Source: Clostridiales bacterium
GTDB taxonomy: Bacteria > Bacillota > Clostridia > Christensenellales > Aristaeellaceae
Reading direction: 5' to 3'
Length of the DNA stretch: 12,525 nucleotides
Assembly: GCA_012512355.1 (NCBI GenBank)
Contig: JAAZEI010000260.1
Span: 1-12,525 of the forward strand
In this document: one piece after another, positions 1,033-5,424 of the stretch
How the letters are laid out: each line of letters starts with the position of its first letter
How positions within the stretch are numbered: position 1 is the stretch's first letter
Position numbers and translations under genes: made by a program
Notes under the pieces: model-generated
What the model saw: the letters and a program-made list of their open reading frames with translations, nothing else
What the model was told of the DNA's origin: nothing
Databases searched by the model: none

Positions 1033-1539
1033 ATGGAGGCGATTGTCGCTGTTGACCGCAATCATGCCATCGGCTCGGGTGGGGGGATGCTTTTTCACCT
1101 TCCGGGCGACTTAAAGTACTTTGCGGCCATGACAAAGGGTAAGATATTGGTGATGGGACGCAGCACCCTCCTGTCCCTGCCAGGGGGCAAACCCCTTAAG
1201 GACAGGTTAAACATCATCCTCAGCCGTGAAATAGGCTATCATGTCCCCCAGGCTCTGGTTGTAAACTCCTTGACGGAATTGGCTGCAGCACTTGCTCCCT
1301 ATGCTCCTGATAAGGTGATGCTCATTGGCGGCCAGCAGATCTACCATTTGCTCATCGACAGCTGCAGCAAGGCCTATGTCACTAAAATTGATGCCGCAGC
1401 GCCTGCAGATTGCTATTTCCCCAACCTGGATAGCAGGCCCCACTGGCAGCTGCAGCAACAGTCTGAGGTGTATCATGACAATGGTCTGAACTACAGGCAT
1501 TGCACCTACATCAATCACAGGGTATTGCCCATCTCATGA
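1033..1539 (+). CDS. folA: Dihydrofolate reductase
   Basis: NADPH-dependent reduction of dihydrofolate to tetrahydrofolate, regenerating the cofactor consumed by the ThyA encoded just upstream. At 168 aa it has normal family length. Seen in the sequence: N-terminal strand with VAVDRNHAIG (5-14); HLPGDLKYF (22-30), whose Asp26 is the substrate-binding acidic residue; VMGRSTLLSLPG (40-51) for NADPH phosphate and adenine binding; MLIGGQQIY (96-104), the IGG cofactor turn. The usual Trp before the Asp (E. coli Trp22) is Phe21 here, so trimethoprim or methotrexate sensitivity cannot be assumed. The ribosome binding site AGGAGGG overlaps the thyA stop codon, so the two are surely co-transcribed. 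The symbol folA or dfrA depends on convention. Confidence 0.95.
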   Translation: MEAIVAVDRNHAIGSGGGMLFHLPGDLKYFAAMTKGKILVMGRSTLLSLPGGKPLKDRLNIILSREIGYHVPQALVVNSLTELAAALAPYAPDKVMLIGGQQIYHLLIDSCSKAYVTKIDAAAPADCYFPNLDSRPHWQLQQQSEVYHDNGLNYRHCTYINHRVLPIS

Positions 1540-1562
1540 AATAACTATGGAGGGAAAAGATT

Positions 1563-1823
1563 ATGACAGAAAATATTGAATACAAATACGATATCCAATT
1601 GCTTATCGAAGGCACCAACCTGGACGAAGAGGCGATATTCGACTACATCCAGGACAACATTGTCGGTGACAGCCTGCTGGCTGTTGGCGATGAAGAGCTC
1701 ATTAAAATACACTACCACAGTAACGAACCCTGGCAGGTGCTGGAGTACTGTGCGAGCCTTGGGGATATCTATGACATCGTCGTTGAAAACATGCAGCGGC
1801 AGTCAGACGGGCTGGGCGGTTAA
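1563..1823 (+). CDS. Small protein resembling the isolated middle domain of FakA/YloV
   Basis: An 86-aa protein with a clear GGAGGG site 8 bases before its ATG; third gene of the thyA-DHFR operon and last before the terminator. The block GDSLLAVGDEELIKIHYHSN (35-54), followed by EPWQVLEY and ending VVENM (73-77), closely resembles the middle domain of FakA/YloV, the fatty-acid kinase that has a DhaL-type kinase domain at its N-terminus and a DegV-like domain at its C-terminus. Neither flanking domain is present, and the start and stop are clean, so it looks like a genuine stand-alone domain and not a visible fragment of a broken gene. There is no signal peptide or membrane segment. The function is unknown. 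I infer a binding or regulatory role, perhaps with a full-length FakA elsewhere. The resemblance is recalled from memory, not searched. Confidence 0.75.
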   Translation: MTENIEYKYDIQLLIEGTNLDEEAIFDYIQDNIVGDSLLAVGDEELIKIHYHSNEPWQVLEYCASLGDIYDIVVENMQRQSDGLGG

Positions 1824-1904: not shown

Positions 1905-2447
1905 TTATTTAAAGAAATAGCGCTTGAGCATGCCCTCAAAAATTTGACCATGGCGAACTTTGTCTCTGGACATGTCGCGCAGCACACTGCGAATCTCTTC
2001 GTAGCCAAGCTCTTTGGCCAGCAAGGATAGCTCCTGTTTGCCCTCTGATGCGAACTTTTCAGCTTCCAAACGCCGCATGATGTTCTCGCGGGTATCTTCC
2101 ACCAGCTGCTCACCCAGTACTTCAGCCAGGCGTCCGGCATGGGCTGCCTGCTCACGGGCCATGCGGAAGAAAGTGTTGGCTATTTCAGCATAGCCCTGAG
2201 AATCCGCCTGCCTGCCCATGGCCAGATAAATGCCTATTTCATGGGATACTGATTCATAGTTTTTGCGAAGGCCGATGACTACACGTTCATCAAGATTCTT
2301 TGCTTCGCCAAGCTTGTACTCATCGCCCCAAACCGGATTGTCTTCAAGCTTTTCAAATTTTTCTTTGCCCACCTTGCAAACCGGGCAGATATCCGGCGGC
2401 TGGGGCCCTTCGTGTATGTAGCCACATACCTTGCAAATCCATTTCAT
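1905..2447 (-). CDS. Rubrerythrin-family protein, N-terminal rubredoxin domain, degenerate di-iron site
   Basis: 180 aa. Residues 1-35 form a rubredoxin-like Fe(Cys)4 module (C5xxC8 and C21xxC24); about 45-178 form a four-helix ferritin-like domain. Rubredoxin-first order is the 'reverse rubrerythrin'/NADH peroxidase arrangement, which in anaerobes reduces peroxide using electrons from NADH via rubredoxin. The oddity is in the di-iron site: rubrerythrins carry two ExxH motifs, but here they read QAAH (Gln100, His103) and KVRH (Lys163, His166). The helix-A Glu position appears to be Val67, with Glu70 one turn on. Both substitutions were checked in the codons (CAG and AAA). A normal peroxidase centre is therefore doubtful, while the rubredoxin site is intact. 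The site AGGAGGG lies about 10 bases before the ATG, slightly long. Monocistronic; ends at the shared terminator. Confidence 0.9.
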   Translation of the reverse strand: MKWICKVCGYIHEGPQPPDICPVCKVGKEKFEKLEDNPVWGDEYKLGEAKNLDERVVIGLRKNYESVSHEIGIYLAMGRQADSQGYAEIANTFFRMAREQAAHAGRLAEVLGEQLVEDTRENIMRRLEAEKFASEGKQELSLLAKELGYEEIRSVLRDMSRDKVRHGQIFEGMLKRYFFK

Positions 2448-2501
2448 TAATCAGTGACCCTCCTTCATTCCATTCACATAATAGTTACCCTAACAATCAA
2501 T

Positions 2502-2530
2502 AGGATAAACGATGAGGCGAAAGTGTTCAA
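2502..2530 (-). promoter_or_regulatory. Candidate promoter for the rubrerythrin gene
   Basis: On the - strand, TTGAAC (2525-2530) and TATCCT (2502-2507) are separated by exactly 17 bases, each matching 4 of 6 sigma-A consensus positions. Transcription would start near 2495, giving a leader of about 50 nt. The wider 2448-2690 divergent spacer is AT-rich and also holds a near-palindrome GAATTAATTATTC (2621-2633, 5 of 6 positions paired), a possible operator. No convincing + strand promoter was found there. Confidence 0.4.
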
Positions 2531-2690
2531 GACCTTTTTGAGCAGTTTTATAAAAATTACTAAAACCAAGAAGCATTCATTTTACAAAAAAATCATCATA
2601 TATCAACAGAAAACACATAAGAATTAATTATTCGACATCTTTTTGCAACATTTGACTTGTCTGTGACGTTTAATCATTGAGGTGAATAAC

Positions 2691-3026
2691 ATGACAACAC
2701 TATTCTCATTCAAAAAACCGGACGTAAAGGGACAAACCCACATCAAATTATGTGATCAGGGCCGACTTGTCTTTGTGGATGGAAAGCCCTGCGCACTGAC
2801 CTTGCAGGAGTTTCGCCTGCTCCGTACCCTGGCCTCCTGCGCCGGCCGCGTACTCAGCCGCGAGCTCCTGCTGCGCCAGGCCTGGGATTATCTGAGCCCC
2901 GGCAAAAGCCGCATGGTGGATGTGCACATGCAGCGACTGCGGCGAAAGCTTGGCAAAAGCCTGTTCCAAACCGTTCATGGTGAAGGCTACAAAATGATGG
3001 CAGTCCCTGTTCCTAAAATCCAGTGA
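2691..3026 (+). CDS. Stand-alone OmpR/PhoB-type winged-helix DNA-binding protein
   Basis: 111 aa, composed almost entirely of the C-terminal effector domain of an OmpR/PhoB response regulator. Seen: LTLQEFRLLRTLA (36-48) and GRVLSRELLLRQAW (52-65), the first two helices; SRMVDVHMQRLRRKL (73-87), the recognition helix; FQTVHGEGYKM (92-102), the C-terminal wing hairpin. There is no receiver domain with its phospho-acceptor Asp, and the first 18 residues are too short to be one. The ATG at 2691 is preferred to the GTG at 2682 because TGAGGTG at 2678-2684 is well spaced for it. No kinase or receiver gene is adjacent. It presumably binds DNA as a transcription regulator that does not depend on phosphorylation; the target is unknown, with the divergent rubrerythrin promoter and its own as the obvious nearby candidates. 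Confidence 0.88.
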   Translation: MTTLFSFKKPDVKGQTHIKLCDQGRLVFVDGKPCALTLQEFRLLRTLASCAGRVLSRELLLRQAWDYLSPGKSRMVDVHMQRLRRKLGKSLFQTVHGEGYKMMAVPVPKIQ

Positions 3027-3040
3027 GTTAATGTGTCCAG

Positions 3041-3065
3041 GCAGGGAGGGGTTATCCCTTCCTGC
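3041..3065. other. Hairpin just downstream of the winged-helix gene
   Basis: GCAGGGAGGG (3041-3050), loop GTTAT, CCCTTCCTGC (3056-3065): ten pairs with one G-U, starting 15 bases after the stop codon. No T-run follows on either strand, so it is at best a weak terminator or an mRNA-end stabiliser. The rest of 3027-3259 is GC-rich with no ribosome binding site or recognisable protein; I see nothing else in it. Confidence 0.5.
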
Positions 3066-3259
3066 ATGATTGATTCGTCCCTTGGCGCAGCCTGCCCGCT
3101 TTGTGTGAAAGAACCAACAACACAAGACTGGCCCCGCAGGCAAGGCTTGCGACATACTGCCCCTTTAAATTAGCGCTAGCCTGTGCGGAAGCTGTGCCGG
3201 CTGATCATACTGACGCAGGCGTGCAGTTAACACCCGTCTTTGTTGACGCGCGAACGCTT

Positions 3260-3286
3260 AAAACTGCCGCGCACGAGGCGCGGCAG
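3260..3286 (-). terminator. Intrinsic terminator of the candidate RNA
   Basis: Read on the - strand, CTGCCGCGC (3286-3278), loop CTCGT, GCGCGGCAG (3272-3264) is a perfect 9-bp GC-rich stem followed directly by TTTT (3263-3260). On the + strand a T4 run follows three bases after the same stem, so it could also stop rightward read-through, but the geometry is better on the - strand. Confidence 0.75.
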
Positions 3287-3378
3287 CTGTTTTACCTATT
3301 TAGTTGTCGGTTGACTACGATAGCACTCGGCTGACTTCCGGGGTTTTACCTAAAATACCTAATCTATATGAATAACCA

Positions 3379-3452
3379 CCGGGTTACATAAGGTGTCGTT
3401 TGATCGTTACCTTTTAGAATTAAATGTTCTTGGATTTACCGATGTAACCCGG
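3379..3452 (-). repeat. 11-bp perfect inverted repeat, nested stem-loop
   Basis: CCGGGTTACAT (3379-3389) and ATGTAACCCGG (3442-3452) are exact reverse complements 52 bases apart. Inside and directly abutting the first arm, AAGGT (3390-3394) can pair with ACCTT (3409-3413). This is the strongest single structural signal in the candidate RNA. Confidence 0.8.
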
Positions 3453-3489
3453 CTACGGGTATGGGGTTAACGATAATTCTTACTCCAAT

Positions 3490-3527
3490 TCCAGTCTTTA
3501 ATTCCAGTTTTCCAGTATTAATCCAGT
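3490..3527 (-). repeat. Four copies of ACTGGA in 38 bases
   Basis: TCCAGT on the + strand (ACUGGA in the candidate RNA) occurs at 3490-3495, 3503-3508, 3511-3516 and 3522-3527, at spacings of 13, 8 and 11. The segment has few good local pairing partners in the RNA, so the copies may be exposed. Confidence 0.7.
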
Positions 3528-3552
3528 TAAGTACCAAGTTTACCAATTTCCT

Positions 3553-3568
3553 GGGTTTCCGGGTTTCC
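3553..3568. repeat. Tandem 8-bp repeat GGGTTTCC x2
   Basis: Two exact adjacent copies of GGGTTTCC at 3553-3560 and 3561-3568 within the candidate RNA gene, read as GGAAACCC twice in the RNA. No function can be assigned. Confidence 0.6.
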
Positions 3569-3853
3569 TAAAAATCATGTTAGTCTGCCAGTCAGCCGTT
3601 CGTTAGGCACCTGACCCTGTTTGCTTTGTTTCACCCTACCTGTTCAGCATCCTTAACAGGATGAAGATTGGGGTGTGTTTACTCTGGGCTTAGATTTTGT
3701 TTACCGTTTTTCGTTCTGTCGAGTAAACTGATCCCCCTAAGTGTTTGAACCTGGCGGGGTGCAGTAAGCAATGGGTTCCGATAAGATTTCTGTATTCAGC
3801 AAACCGCCCTCCTCTGAACCTTGTACTTGTTTCCTGTTCTTTGGTTCGACTTC

Positions 3854-3883
3854 ATTATAAACCACAACAATCATAATTGTCAA
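3854..3883 (-). promoter_or_regulatory. Perfect-consensus sigma-A promoter firing leftward
   Basis: On the - strand, TTGACA (3883-3878) and TATAAT (3859-3854) are both exact consensus hexamers with an 18-base spacer. Predicted start is near 3847. It lies 26 bases beyond the stop of the pseudouridine synthase gene and points into the gene-free stretch, so it should drive strong, probably constitutive synthesis of the candidate RNA. Confidence 0.8.
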
Positions 3884-3909
3884 CCCCTTTGTTGAAAAAG
3901 GTTCAATAG

Positions 3910-4806
3910 TCACCTCATACAACCCCAAGATGCAGGAGGACCAATGATTTCCTGCATTTCCGGCGGCATGTCAGCGCTTGCTTGTACCCACCGCGACAGC
4001 AGCGGATGGAAAAATTTTACACTGCAGGAATGCAGAGCAAACCGGCCGGGCATCTGGACTTCCTCCTGCCCATATAAAAAATCGCCGTACACCGGGCAGC
4101 CCAGCGCCCCAAGATGCACCCTGATCTGGTGGGTGCGCCCCGTGATAAGCCGGATCGCCACCAGGCTCAGATCTCCTTTTGTATGCACTACCTCATAGAA
4201 GGTCAAAGCCGCCTGACCGTCTGCATCCACCACCCTGCGGATACCTGCGCCATGTCCGATGGGCAGATCGATTCGGCCGCTGCTTTGCGGCAAGTGCCCC
4301 ACAGTGATGGCCAGGTACTCGCGCAGAAACTCTTGGCTGTGAAGCTTCTTTTGCATTCTCTGCTGGATATGGGCATTTTTAGCGACGAGCATCAGCCCGC
4401 TGGTTCCCTTGTCCAGCCTGTTGATGGGGCGATAGACAAAGTCTGCCGGCTCGCCCAGGTAGCTGAATACGCGGTTTTCCAGTGTTTCACCCCCTTGTTT
4501 TGAGGAAATGCTGTGCAGGGGCGCGGGTTTGTTAACCATAAGTAAGTCATTATCTTCATAGGCGACCACCAGGGGCTGGCTGCCGCTGAGCGGTCTTGGG
4601 CCTGCATCGTTTCGAAACACCAGCTTCAGGCTCTCCCCCCGGCTCAGGCGATAGTCGCTGCGCCGCGGCATCCCATCCACATAAATGCCCTCGTGAAACT
4701 TGAGCCGTTTATACTGCGTGTAGCTAATCTTCAGCTGGCCTCTGAGCAAGTTCTGAATGCTCATCCCCTGCTGCTCCCCGGTAATGACCCAATTCATTTC
4801 ATGCAT
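3910..4806 (-). CDS. RluA-family pseudouridine synthase
   Basis: Isomerises uridine to pseudouridine in structured RNA, in this family usually 23S rRNA or tRNA. Numbering from the ATG at 4806 (298 aa): an S4-like N-terminal region (about 15-62), then the catalytic domain from about 80. The signature INRLDKGTSGL (128-138) holds catalytic Asp132; His of the common HRLD form is Asn here, as in many Firmicute relatives. GRTHQIRVHL (223-232) and GCPVYGDFLYG (236-246) are the other family motifs. The frame is open upstream to a GTG at 4875, but the extra residues do not look like family sequence and would run into the divergent operon's promoter region. Neither start has a good ribosome binding site, so the start is uncertain. 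The exact rRNA or tRNA position modified cannot be told from sequence. Confidence 0.92.
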   Translation of the reverse strand: MHEMNWVITGEQQGMSIQNLLRGQLKISYTQYKRLKFHEGIYVDGMPRRSDYRLSRGESLKLVFRNDAGPRPLSGSQPLVVAYEDNDLLMVNKPAPLHSISSKQGGETLENRVFSYLGEPADFVYRPINRLDKGTSGLMLVAKNAHIQQRMQKKLHSQEFLREYLAITVGHLPQSSGRIDLPIGHGAGIRRVVDADGQAALTFYEVVHTKGDLSLVAIRLITGRTHQIRVHLGALGCPVYGDFLYGQEEVQMPGRFALHSCSVKFFHPLLSRWVQASADMPPEMQEIIGPPASWGCMR

Positions 4807-4870
4807 AAAAACATCATAAGAAGCAAAACCCCGTCCGTCAAGCAGCAGCCTGAAAAGCCTGTGTGCGCTG

Positions 4871-4899
4871 TTCACAACCAGATGAAATTATGCTATCTT
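4871..4899 (+). promoter_or_regulatory. Candidate extended -10 promoter of the parAB operon
   Basis: TTCACA (4871-4876), 17-base spacer, TATCTT (4894-4899) preceded by TGC, an extended -10 element. The start would be near 4906, about 36 bases before the first ATG. The -35 matches 5 of 6 and the -10 matches 4 of 6 positions. Confidence 0.45.
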
Positions 4900-4941
4900 A
4901 TAAGGGTAGAATTACGCTGCCGGCACGCGGAGGGAAGGGTC

Positions 4942-5424
4942 ATGACAGCCATAAATCAGACCATCGCCATCCTCACCCCCTGGCTTGGGGGTGACTTTGT
5001 CAGCGCGCAGGCCCCACTGATGGCCCGCATCAGCTTTAAACTGGCGCACTTTCATCCCCAAAGAGACAGCCTGCCGGCACTGGCACAGGATGTTGACAGC
5101 CAGCTTTTTCTCGCTGTGCGGGATGATACAAAAGGCCGCATGATCCTGCGCCTTTGCAATCAGCAATATATGAAGGTACGGCTGCAGGATTTTGCCACGA
5201 TGACAGATGAACTGCTCTACCTCGTGATGAGTGCCCTGCCCCGGAACATCACCAACTTCAGGTTGGTTCAGGAGTATTCTATGCGGCAAGGCTCCCTTTC
5301 CGCCCTGCGCGCGCTCTATATTGATTTTCAGGCTTTCCAGACAGAAGAAGAATGGCGCACCGTCATTCGCGTCATAAAAACCTGCCACCCGCCCTTCCGC
5401 TGGCGGAACTGGCTTGAAGCATAG
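4942..5424 (+). CDS. Uncharacterised 160-aa protein leading the parAB operon
   Basis: I do not recognise this protein. The ATG at 4942 is preferred over upstream in-frame starts because GGAGGGAAGG (4929-4938) precedes it and the upstream frame overlaps the divergent pseudouridine synthase gene. It has no signal peptide, no obvious membrane segment and no P-loop or metal-binding Cys motif. The N-terminal half (1-85) alternates short hydrophobic stretches that could be beta strands; 85-145 looks mainly helical, with several Arg, and the tail (149-158) is basic and aromatic ([10 protein letters not shown]). The stop TAG is embedded in the ribosome binding site of parA, with 7 bases between the genes, so it is translated in step with ParA. 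That suggests, but does not show, a role tied to chromosome segregation. It lacks the sequence features of Noc, RsmG or Jag, the usual parAB neighbours. Confidence 0.75.

Follow-up and report, generated by a model that had tools for sequence, protein, structure and literature searches.

To our knowledge, few conserved stand-alone bacterial RNAs of the size considered here have been described, and for several large ones no function has yet been established. The RNAIII/delta-haemolysin RNA is a dual-function sRNA, and in leader-peptide attenuators of the erm and tna type a short ORF overlaps one arm of a helix. VcdRP is reported to be another dual-function sRNA (PMC8672173). OLE, ROOL and GOLLD are characterised as large ornate bacterial RNAs, and PMC11706538 describes the raiA motif RNA, or ModT, as a conserved structured RNA of Bacillota and Actinomycetota.

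The RNA analysed here lies in the window, that is, the whole stretch of 12,525 nucleotides under study, and each of these systems resembles it in part. It shares with the dual-function sRNAs the form of an independent RNA that carries a short ORF along with a presumed regulatory part, and a promoter and a terminator of its own can be recognised from its sequence. Unlike them, it shows no ATG start in any of the 52 members found, the second half of its ORF is an arm of a conserved long-range helix, and it is not known to be related to them in sequence, an Rfam search having given no match. The overlap of ORF and helix is the same as in the erm and tna attenuators, but the present RNA has its own terminator and no neighbour gene common to all genera. 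It is large, as are OLE, ROOL and GOLLD, but it has no Rfam match, varies in length and contains a micro-ORF. The raiA RNA is likewise conserved and structured, yet it occupies other loci, Rfam gave no match of the present RNA to it, and the term "open reading frame" is absent from the text of PMC11706538.

Member loci are designated here by L numbers (win for the window) and genera by the gN labels of the search tool, g1 being the genus of the window. No hit at the gathering level of Rfam 15 was obtained in the window. At E≤10, positions 3040-3950 gave four weak hits, the best of them to the DnaX element (E 0.099, 19.7 of 35 bits); at E≤1, nine member loci gave only a neighbouring tRNA and sR22 (0.91), and eleven further loci gave two hits in L113, the best with E 0.026 and 23.9 of 39 bits, off the core formed by the ORF and the long-range helix. 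Three known classes were rejected as divergent relatives because they were encoded separately: raiA (RF03072), which in 9 of 10 carrier genomes, the window's own among them, sits on a different contig, tmRNA (RF00023) above the cut-off in 8 of 10 carriers (not in G000 and G001), and 6S RNA (RF00013) at its own locus in all 10 (E≤5e-8, 8 above the cut-off). This is an RNA family without Rfam match that recurs in related Clostridia-type bacteria, and the preliminary description, which had proposed a structured element with its own promoter and terminator matching no known class, is upheld in this. A full-text search found, among the matches listed, no paper describing the RNA; large candidate sets such as that of PMC8040213 may contain an earlier, unnamed prediction of it.

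Anatomy of the RNA

Comparison of the members shows, at the level of sequence, a common anatomy that runs from 5' to 3' through a strong promoter, one or two 5' hairpins, a Shine-Dalgarno-like stretch, an ORF with a weak start codon, a long-range helix (P2), a variable domain and a terminator; a 3' motif before the terminator was seen in several genera only. The corresponding features of the window are listed in Table 1.

Table 1. Predicted parts of the RNA in the window, in 5' to 3' order
Feature	Positions	Strand	Remarks
Whole RNA, about 590 nt	3258..3847	-	both ends predicted; ends conserved and middle diverged in three same-genus relatives
Sigma-70 type promoter, TTGACA-18-TATAAT	3854..3883	-	12/12 match; start site placed near 3847
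P1, 5'-end hairpin	3816..3847	-	arms 3843-3847 GAACC and 3816-3820 GGTTC; paired in predicted fold
Shine-Dalgarno-like AGGAGG	3808..3813	-	8 nt 5' of CTG, 5 nt 5' of TTG
Micro-ORF LNTEILSEPIAYCTPPGSNT and stop	3737..3799	-	from CTG; in-frame TTG upstream at 3800-3802
P2, 5' arm	3746..3782	-	within micro-ORF; core 3746-3761
Small hairpin CATCC..GGATG	3648..3663	-	predicted fold; just 5' of P2 3' arm; also in L002, L003, L004
P2, 3' arm	3609..3646	-	core 3632-3646, TGAAC-A-GGT-A-GGGTG
Variable domain with 11-bp stem	3310..3608	-	stem present; unalignable in relatives
3' motif CGACAACTAAATAGG	3295..3309	-	CCCGACAACTGAATAGG or near variants in g1 relatives
Terminator hairpin, then TTTT	3260..3286	-	9-bp perfect stem (3264-3286); stem and tail seen in sequence

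The promoter and the intrinsic terminator that had been reported at these positions were both recovered. Among 15 promoter-like sites of the window this promoter ranked first, and exact matches are expected by chance at about 0.004 per 12.5 kb (composition of positions 2001-5000). TTGACA together with a -10 element of at least 3/6 was found in 50 of the 52 members, with a spacer of 17 nt in 48, and in all 13 strong model hits, which had been found regardless of the promoter. The terminator stem, followed by TTTT (TGTTTT in L002), is kept in three same-genus relatives; the terminator scan reported it in the plus orientation only, because the tail on the minus strand, TTTTAAGCG, has four T. The observation of a free-standing folded RNA with a promoter and a terminator of its own is confirmed at the level of sequence. 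The predicted fold of the whole 594 nt has an energy of -157 kcal/mol (z -1.86) and 3 of 100 shuffles were equally good; the window RNA thus barely outfolds its shuffles and the single-sequence argument is weak. The decisive support for the predicted RNA is comparative, namely its recovery from three of the four other genomes of the genus and from 52 members in all. The element also stands out by its G+C content, 0.40-0.43 inside vs about 0.55 on both flanks.

At the 5' end, P1 shows a compensatory change, GAACC/GGTTC in g1 vs GAGCC/GGCTC in most g20 members. The 11-bp perfect stem that the preliminary description had singled out, CCGGGTTACAT/ATGTAACCCGG at 3379-3389/3442-3452, is present, but it lies in the diverged middle with which the relatives do not align, and by that alignment it is a local feature rather than a key one. 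A 3' motif similar to that of the window was recovered in four g20 members, one g6 member and one g68 member. Length fared likewise: about 590 nt holds for the window but is no feature of the class, as the RNA measures 299-314 nt in 22 g17 members and across the family the length goes from about 300 nt up to 800 nt or more. The upper value comes from L059, whose RNA would be at least about 800 nt by its sequence because the 3' arm of P2 is located about 680 nt past the start codon. In L113 (g6) the TTACAACTGAATAACC motif recurs about 450-520 nt past the ORF start, beyond a first terminator-like hairpin, and another such hairpin comes after it, so that this particular g6 RNA may end later than assumed.

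Distribution of the family

When 60 relatives were searched at the DNA level, three of the four other genomes of the genus proved to carry the element, its 5' end being 72-83% identical (E≤1.3e-16); the promoter, the 5' domain and the 3' end align among them, and the middle does not. With model R1, built on the 5' domain, and then R2, 13 genomes from two genera were identified as carriers (E≤2.2e-17). L031, L059 and L062 were picked out among the weak hits, model R3 contributed eight more members and a pattern search, paired with promoter, ORF and P2 checks, another 28; R2 and R3 contain no base pairs. The resulting 52 members, the window included, belong to 11 genera of one bacterial family, of which 308 genomes, many of them incomplete, were searched. 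Carriers among the genomes of each genus were 4/5 in g1, 9/11 in g20, 22/28 in g17, 4/7 in g6, 3/5 in g18, 3/3 in g2, 3/6 in g10, 1/1 in g68, 1/6 in g60, 1/7 in g71 and 1/1 in g63, and in 28 of the 80 genomes of these genera the RNA was not found.

The count of 52 is a lower bound: 97 and 153 genomes matched in two model searches, mostly weakly, and the loci viewed were those returned, while the pattern search matched 98 of the 308 family genomes, from which 30 loci and 44 stretches with A or G at the wildcard were viewed. By eye, L026, L032, L033, L047-L057, L060, L061, L063, L117 and L120-L124 were taken as coding DNA or as unlike the RNA. L058 was dropped as a different small gene, and L179, which passed the promoter filter, because its sequence continues as a frame of 144 aa; L149 and L125 are one locus. 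Three loci were kept despite failing the script filter: L115 (no promoter found), L150 (TTTACA) and L192 (another site picked).

In a pattern scan of named genomes, 5 of 19 stretches were true members, whose hosts, all uncultured, are Christensenella sp. UBA1385 and UBA5327 and Clostridiales, Eubacteriales and uncultured Clostridia MAGs. Twelve other stretches, with R2 E values of 9e-6 to 5e-3 that arise in part because they contain the search pattern, were taken as chance. Nothing clear was found by R3 outside the family among 396 genomes of the order and 196 of the class, where matches in four order genomes and six class genomes reached E values of 6e-4 to 9e-3 only. Six of these loci were examined and rejected; their promoter-like sites matched at no more than 9/12 positions and their longest open run covered 103-199 of about 200 codons.

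The micro-ORF and the long-range helix

The Shine-Dalgarno-like stretch reads GGGAGG in 25 members, AGGAGG in 14 and AGGGGG in 6, together 45 of 52, and is weaker or shifted in the remaining 7. It precedes a frame of 16-26 codons that in the window corresponds to the last 20-21 codons of a mechanical 63-aa ORF (3737-3928, minus strand) and that starts with TTG in 39 members, with CTG in 12, with CCG in one (L042) and with ATG in none. This frame is open through codon 14 and reaches its first stop by codon 27 in 52/52 members, a figure that is partly selected because the ORF helped to recognise some of the members taken by eye; the same holds for frame 1 in 20/52 and for frame 2 in 9/52. The 28 pattern-found members were preselected by their TTG start, and all but L150 and L192 also by script for a promoter; the 11 others (the three weak hits and the eight from R3) were taken with promoter and ORF in view, so that the set free of bias for promoter, start and frame is that of the 13 strong model hits, which were retrieved from their DNA alone. 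Among these 13 the start is CTG in 12 and CCG in one, and frames 0, 1 and 2 are open in 13, 0 and 2 members, as against 11, 7 and 3 of the 11 taken by eye and 28, 13 and 4 of the 28 found by pattern. We take the micro-ORF as probably translated. The statement that no protein gene lies between promoter and terminator is right as far as ordinary genes are concerned, but with this frame kept in 52 members an RNA without a protein gene inside is doubtful, and the view of it as purely non-coding is not sustained.

The peptides resemble each other between genera (for example LYHTEIGSEPIACLVRFMDT, LYHNESNEQPIACIARTETI and LNTEILLEPVACLALSRFDD), the likeness being centred on T-E and [AV]-C-x-x-R. In L042 (genome G294), the sole member with CCG at the ORF start, Arg replaces the usual Cys and P2 is intact. 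Differences in ORF length come in threes in an alignment of 16 members, with the exception of L002, where a single base is inserted within the ORF and the peptide differs thereafter. In g20 (6 of 9 members tested) variation concentrates at the third codon position (entropy 2.2/1.3/6.8), and 26/54 single-base codon differences between pairs are synonymous vs 10/59 and 3/59 in the other frames. Third-position variation was also seen in g10 (3 members, 7/10 synonymous), g1 was uninformative, and no synonymous bias appeared in g17 (16 distinct sequences among 21 members, with 6/5/5 variable sites at the three codon positions) or in g6 (4 members; 6/3/5, with 3/19 synonymous).

One reading of these data is that the product would be the peptide of roughly 20 amino acids, with the remainder of the RNA serving as a long stabilising 3' untranslated region and P2 limiting translation, as comparable pairing limits it in some type I toxin mRNAs. 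The frame kept in every member and the third-position variation in g20 and g10 speak for it, as does the g17 stop, whose position is shared by 21 of 22 members even though the last codons vary. However, the peptides are short, variable and unlike membrane helices, the Cys is lost in L029 and L042, those of L164 and g10 share little, start codons are weak throughout, g17 is conserved outside the ORF too, and L042 and L002 have lost the start codon and gained one base, respectively. We regard this reading as rather unlikely.

In P2 the latter half of the ORF is paired with sequence located roughly 100-660 nt further downstream, and a homologous helix is found in other genera. In the minimum-energy fold of the window it has 27 pairs, interrupted, between the two arms; with the window set aside, 45 of the other 51 members have a helix of 10-16 bp. 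The preliminary description had proposed conservation and covariation in relatives as a test, and along with the 52 members in 11 genera compensatory changes do occur in P2 between genera: each column from -3 to +10 forms a pair in 35-43 of 43 distinct members and shows 3-6 pair types. When the unbroken helix of 20 members was compared with 200 shuffles, none was as good for 13 members and two to seven for 4 more, whereas in three it was not significant (184 shuffles as good for the window, 78 for L003 and 14 for L182). Because P2 was picked as the best helix, permutation between representatives is the fair control; in 16 representatives, the window and L003 not among them, 0.909 of the positions were paired vs a mean of 0.607 and a maximum of 0.784 in 2000 arm permutations.

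In g1, P2 is a longer but interrupted helix. An unconstrained search for duplexes between the ORF and downstream sequence returned the matching place in the window, L003 and L004 (143-150 nt past the start) and one overlapping it in L002, but the duplex energies with interruptions were equalled by 36 (window), 54 (L002), 139 (L003) and 104 (L004) of 500 shuffles, and the support for P2 in g1 is therefore positional rather than statistical; in the 51-member comparison the unbroken helices that scored best in L003 and L004 sat elsewhere. For 22 g17 members RNAalifold recovered P2 and two 5' hairpins, with compensatory changes in 8 of 52 pairs (three in P2, three more in the two hairpins) and a small covariation term (-1.84 of -60.91 kcal/mol).

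The pairing and its compensatory changes also suit a second reading, in which the RNA would be purely structural and non-coding and its open frame a by-product of the conserved P2 and G-rich motif sequence; g17 and g6, which lack synonymous bias, the lost start of L042 and the in-ORF base of L002 agree with it. But start, frame and stop are kept jointly over 11 genera while the other frames are closed far more often, and an NTG codon stands in 51 of 52 members at a fixed distance past the G-rich, mostly Shine-Dalgarno-like stretch, so that this reading seems unlikely to us.

Genomic context and proposed mode of action

The neighbours of the RNA are largely syntenic within a genus and mostly different between genera. 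They include GNAT and other enzyme genes in g17, VanZ-like, UvrB and M29 peptidase genes in g20, an MBL-flavodoxin gene in g10, a TPP-dependent oxidoreductase gene in g2, and Soj/ParA and pseudouridine synthase genes in g1; exceptions are two g18 members, L240, which has the GNAT and mannitol-dehydrogenase-like neighbours of g17, and L239, with a pseudouridine synthase nearby as in g1. No neighbour is common to all genera, which fits a trans-acting RNA. It is very improbable that the RNA is instead the leader or attenuator of an adjacent gene: an ORF like that of a leader peptide overlapping a helix arm is typical of attenuators, but no conserved co-directional downstream gene was found, and the window gene past the terminator is convergent (2682-3026, plus strand). 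A decayed mobile element or phage-derived piece is hardly credible. The restriction to one family and the patchy occurrence in some genera would accord with such an origin, but searches of phages with the window RNA, of plasmids with one g17 member and of viral contigs with two RNA patterns gave no match, no convincing second copy was seen among the loci examined, and the surroundings largely keep their synteny within genera.

Several observations were made on nearby genes. The window gene convergent with the RNA encodes an OmpR-type DNA-binding domain (Trans_reg_C) of 114 aa that stands alone and has no receiver domain, and an 86-aa protein encoded at 1563-1823 (plus strand) consists of a FakA-like middle domain only (PF21645). 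In the window (3910-4875) a pseudouridine synthase gene separates the RNA from soj; L003 and L004, of the same genus, apparently lack this gene. A tRNA gene is located downstream of the RNA in L027 (2655-2728), with a near-identical stretch in L046. The dropped locus L058 has, at about 1450-1700 (plus strand), a TTGACA/TATAAT promoter, a Shine-Dalgarno sequence, an ATG, a Cys-rich ORF of 24 aa (MKRVFTNCMCCMRRQRRPMPCRLC) and a terminator-like hairpin, after which follows a gene that reads by eye like one for a secreted solute-binding protein; this small ORF and hairpin look like a leader-peptide attenuator.

The reading that we prefer, and that we hold to have an even chance of being correct, is that of a trans-acting stand-alone dual-function RNA in which translation of the micro-ORF opens P2 and so switches the downstream domain. 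That a weakly started ORF supplies, with its body, one arm of a conserved long-range helix points to an opening of this helix by ribosomes. With a UUG or CUG start the ORF would be translated at low efficiency; the untranslated RNA would be the closed form and the translated RNA, with a ribosome on the ORF and P2 opened, the open form, and the downstream domain or the peptide may then act in trans on some host target. A narrower version, a ribosome-operated trans switch in which initiation at the weak UUG or CUG start, or elongation through the "xACxxR" codons, opens P2 as a report on the cell's translational state and frees the downstream domain to act elsewhere, is improbable.

The family is unusual in design, since its micro-ORF also serves as an arm of a long-range helix that covaries, and an ATG start is absent in all 52 members. 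Should translation indeed set the fold, the RNA would sense ribosomes as a regulator that controls no adjacent gene, and if the ribosome-operated switch is real, it would amount to a free-standing attenuator tied to no gene.
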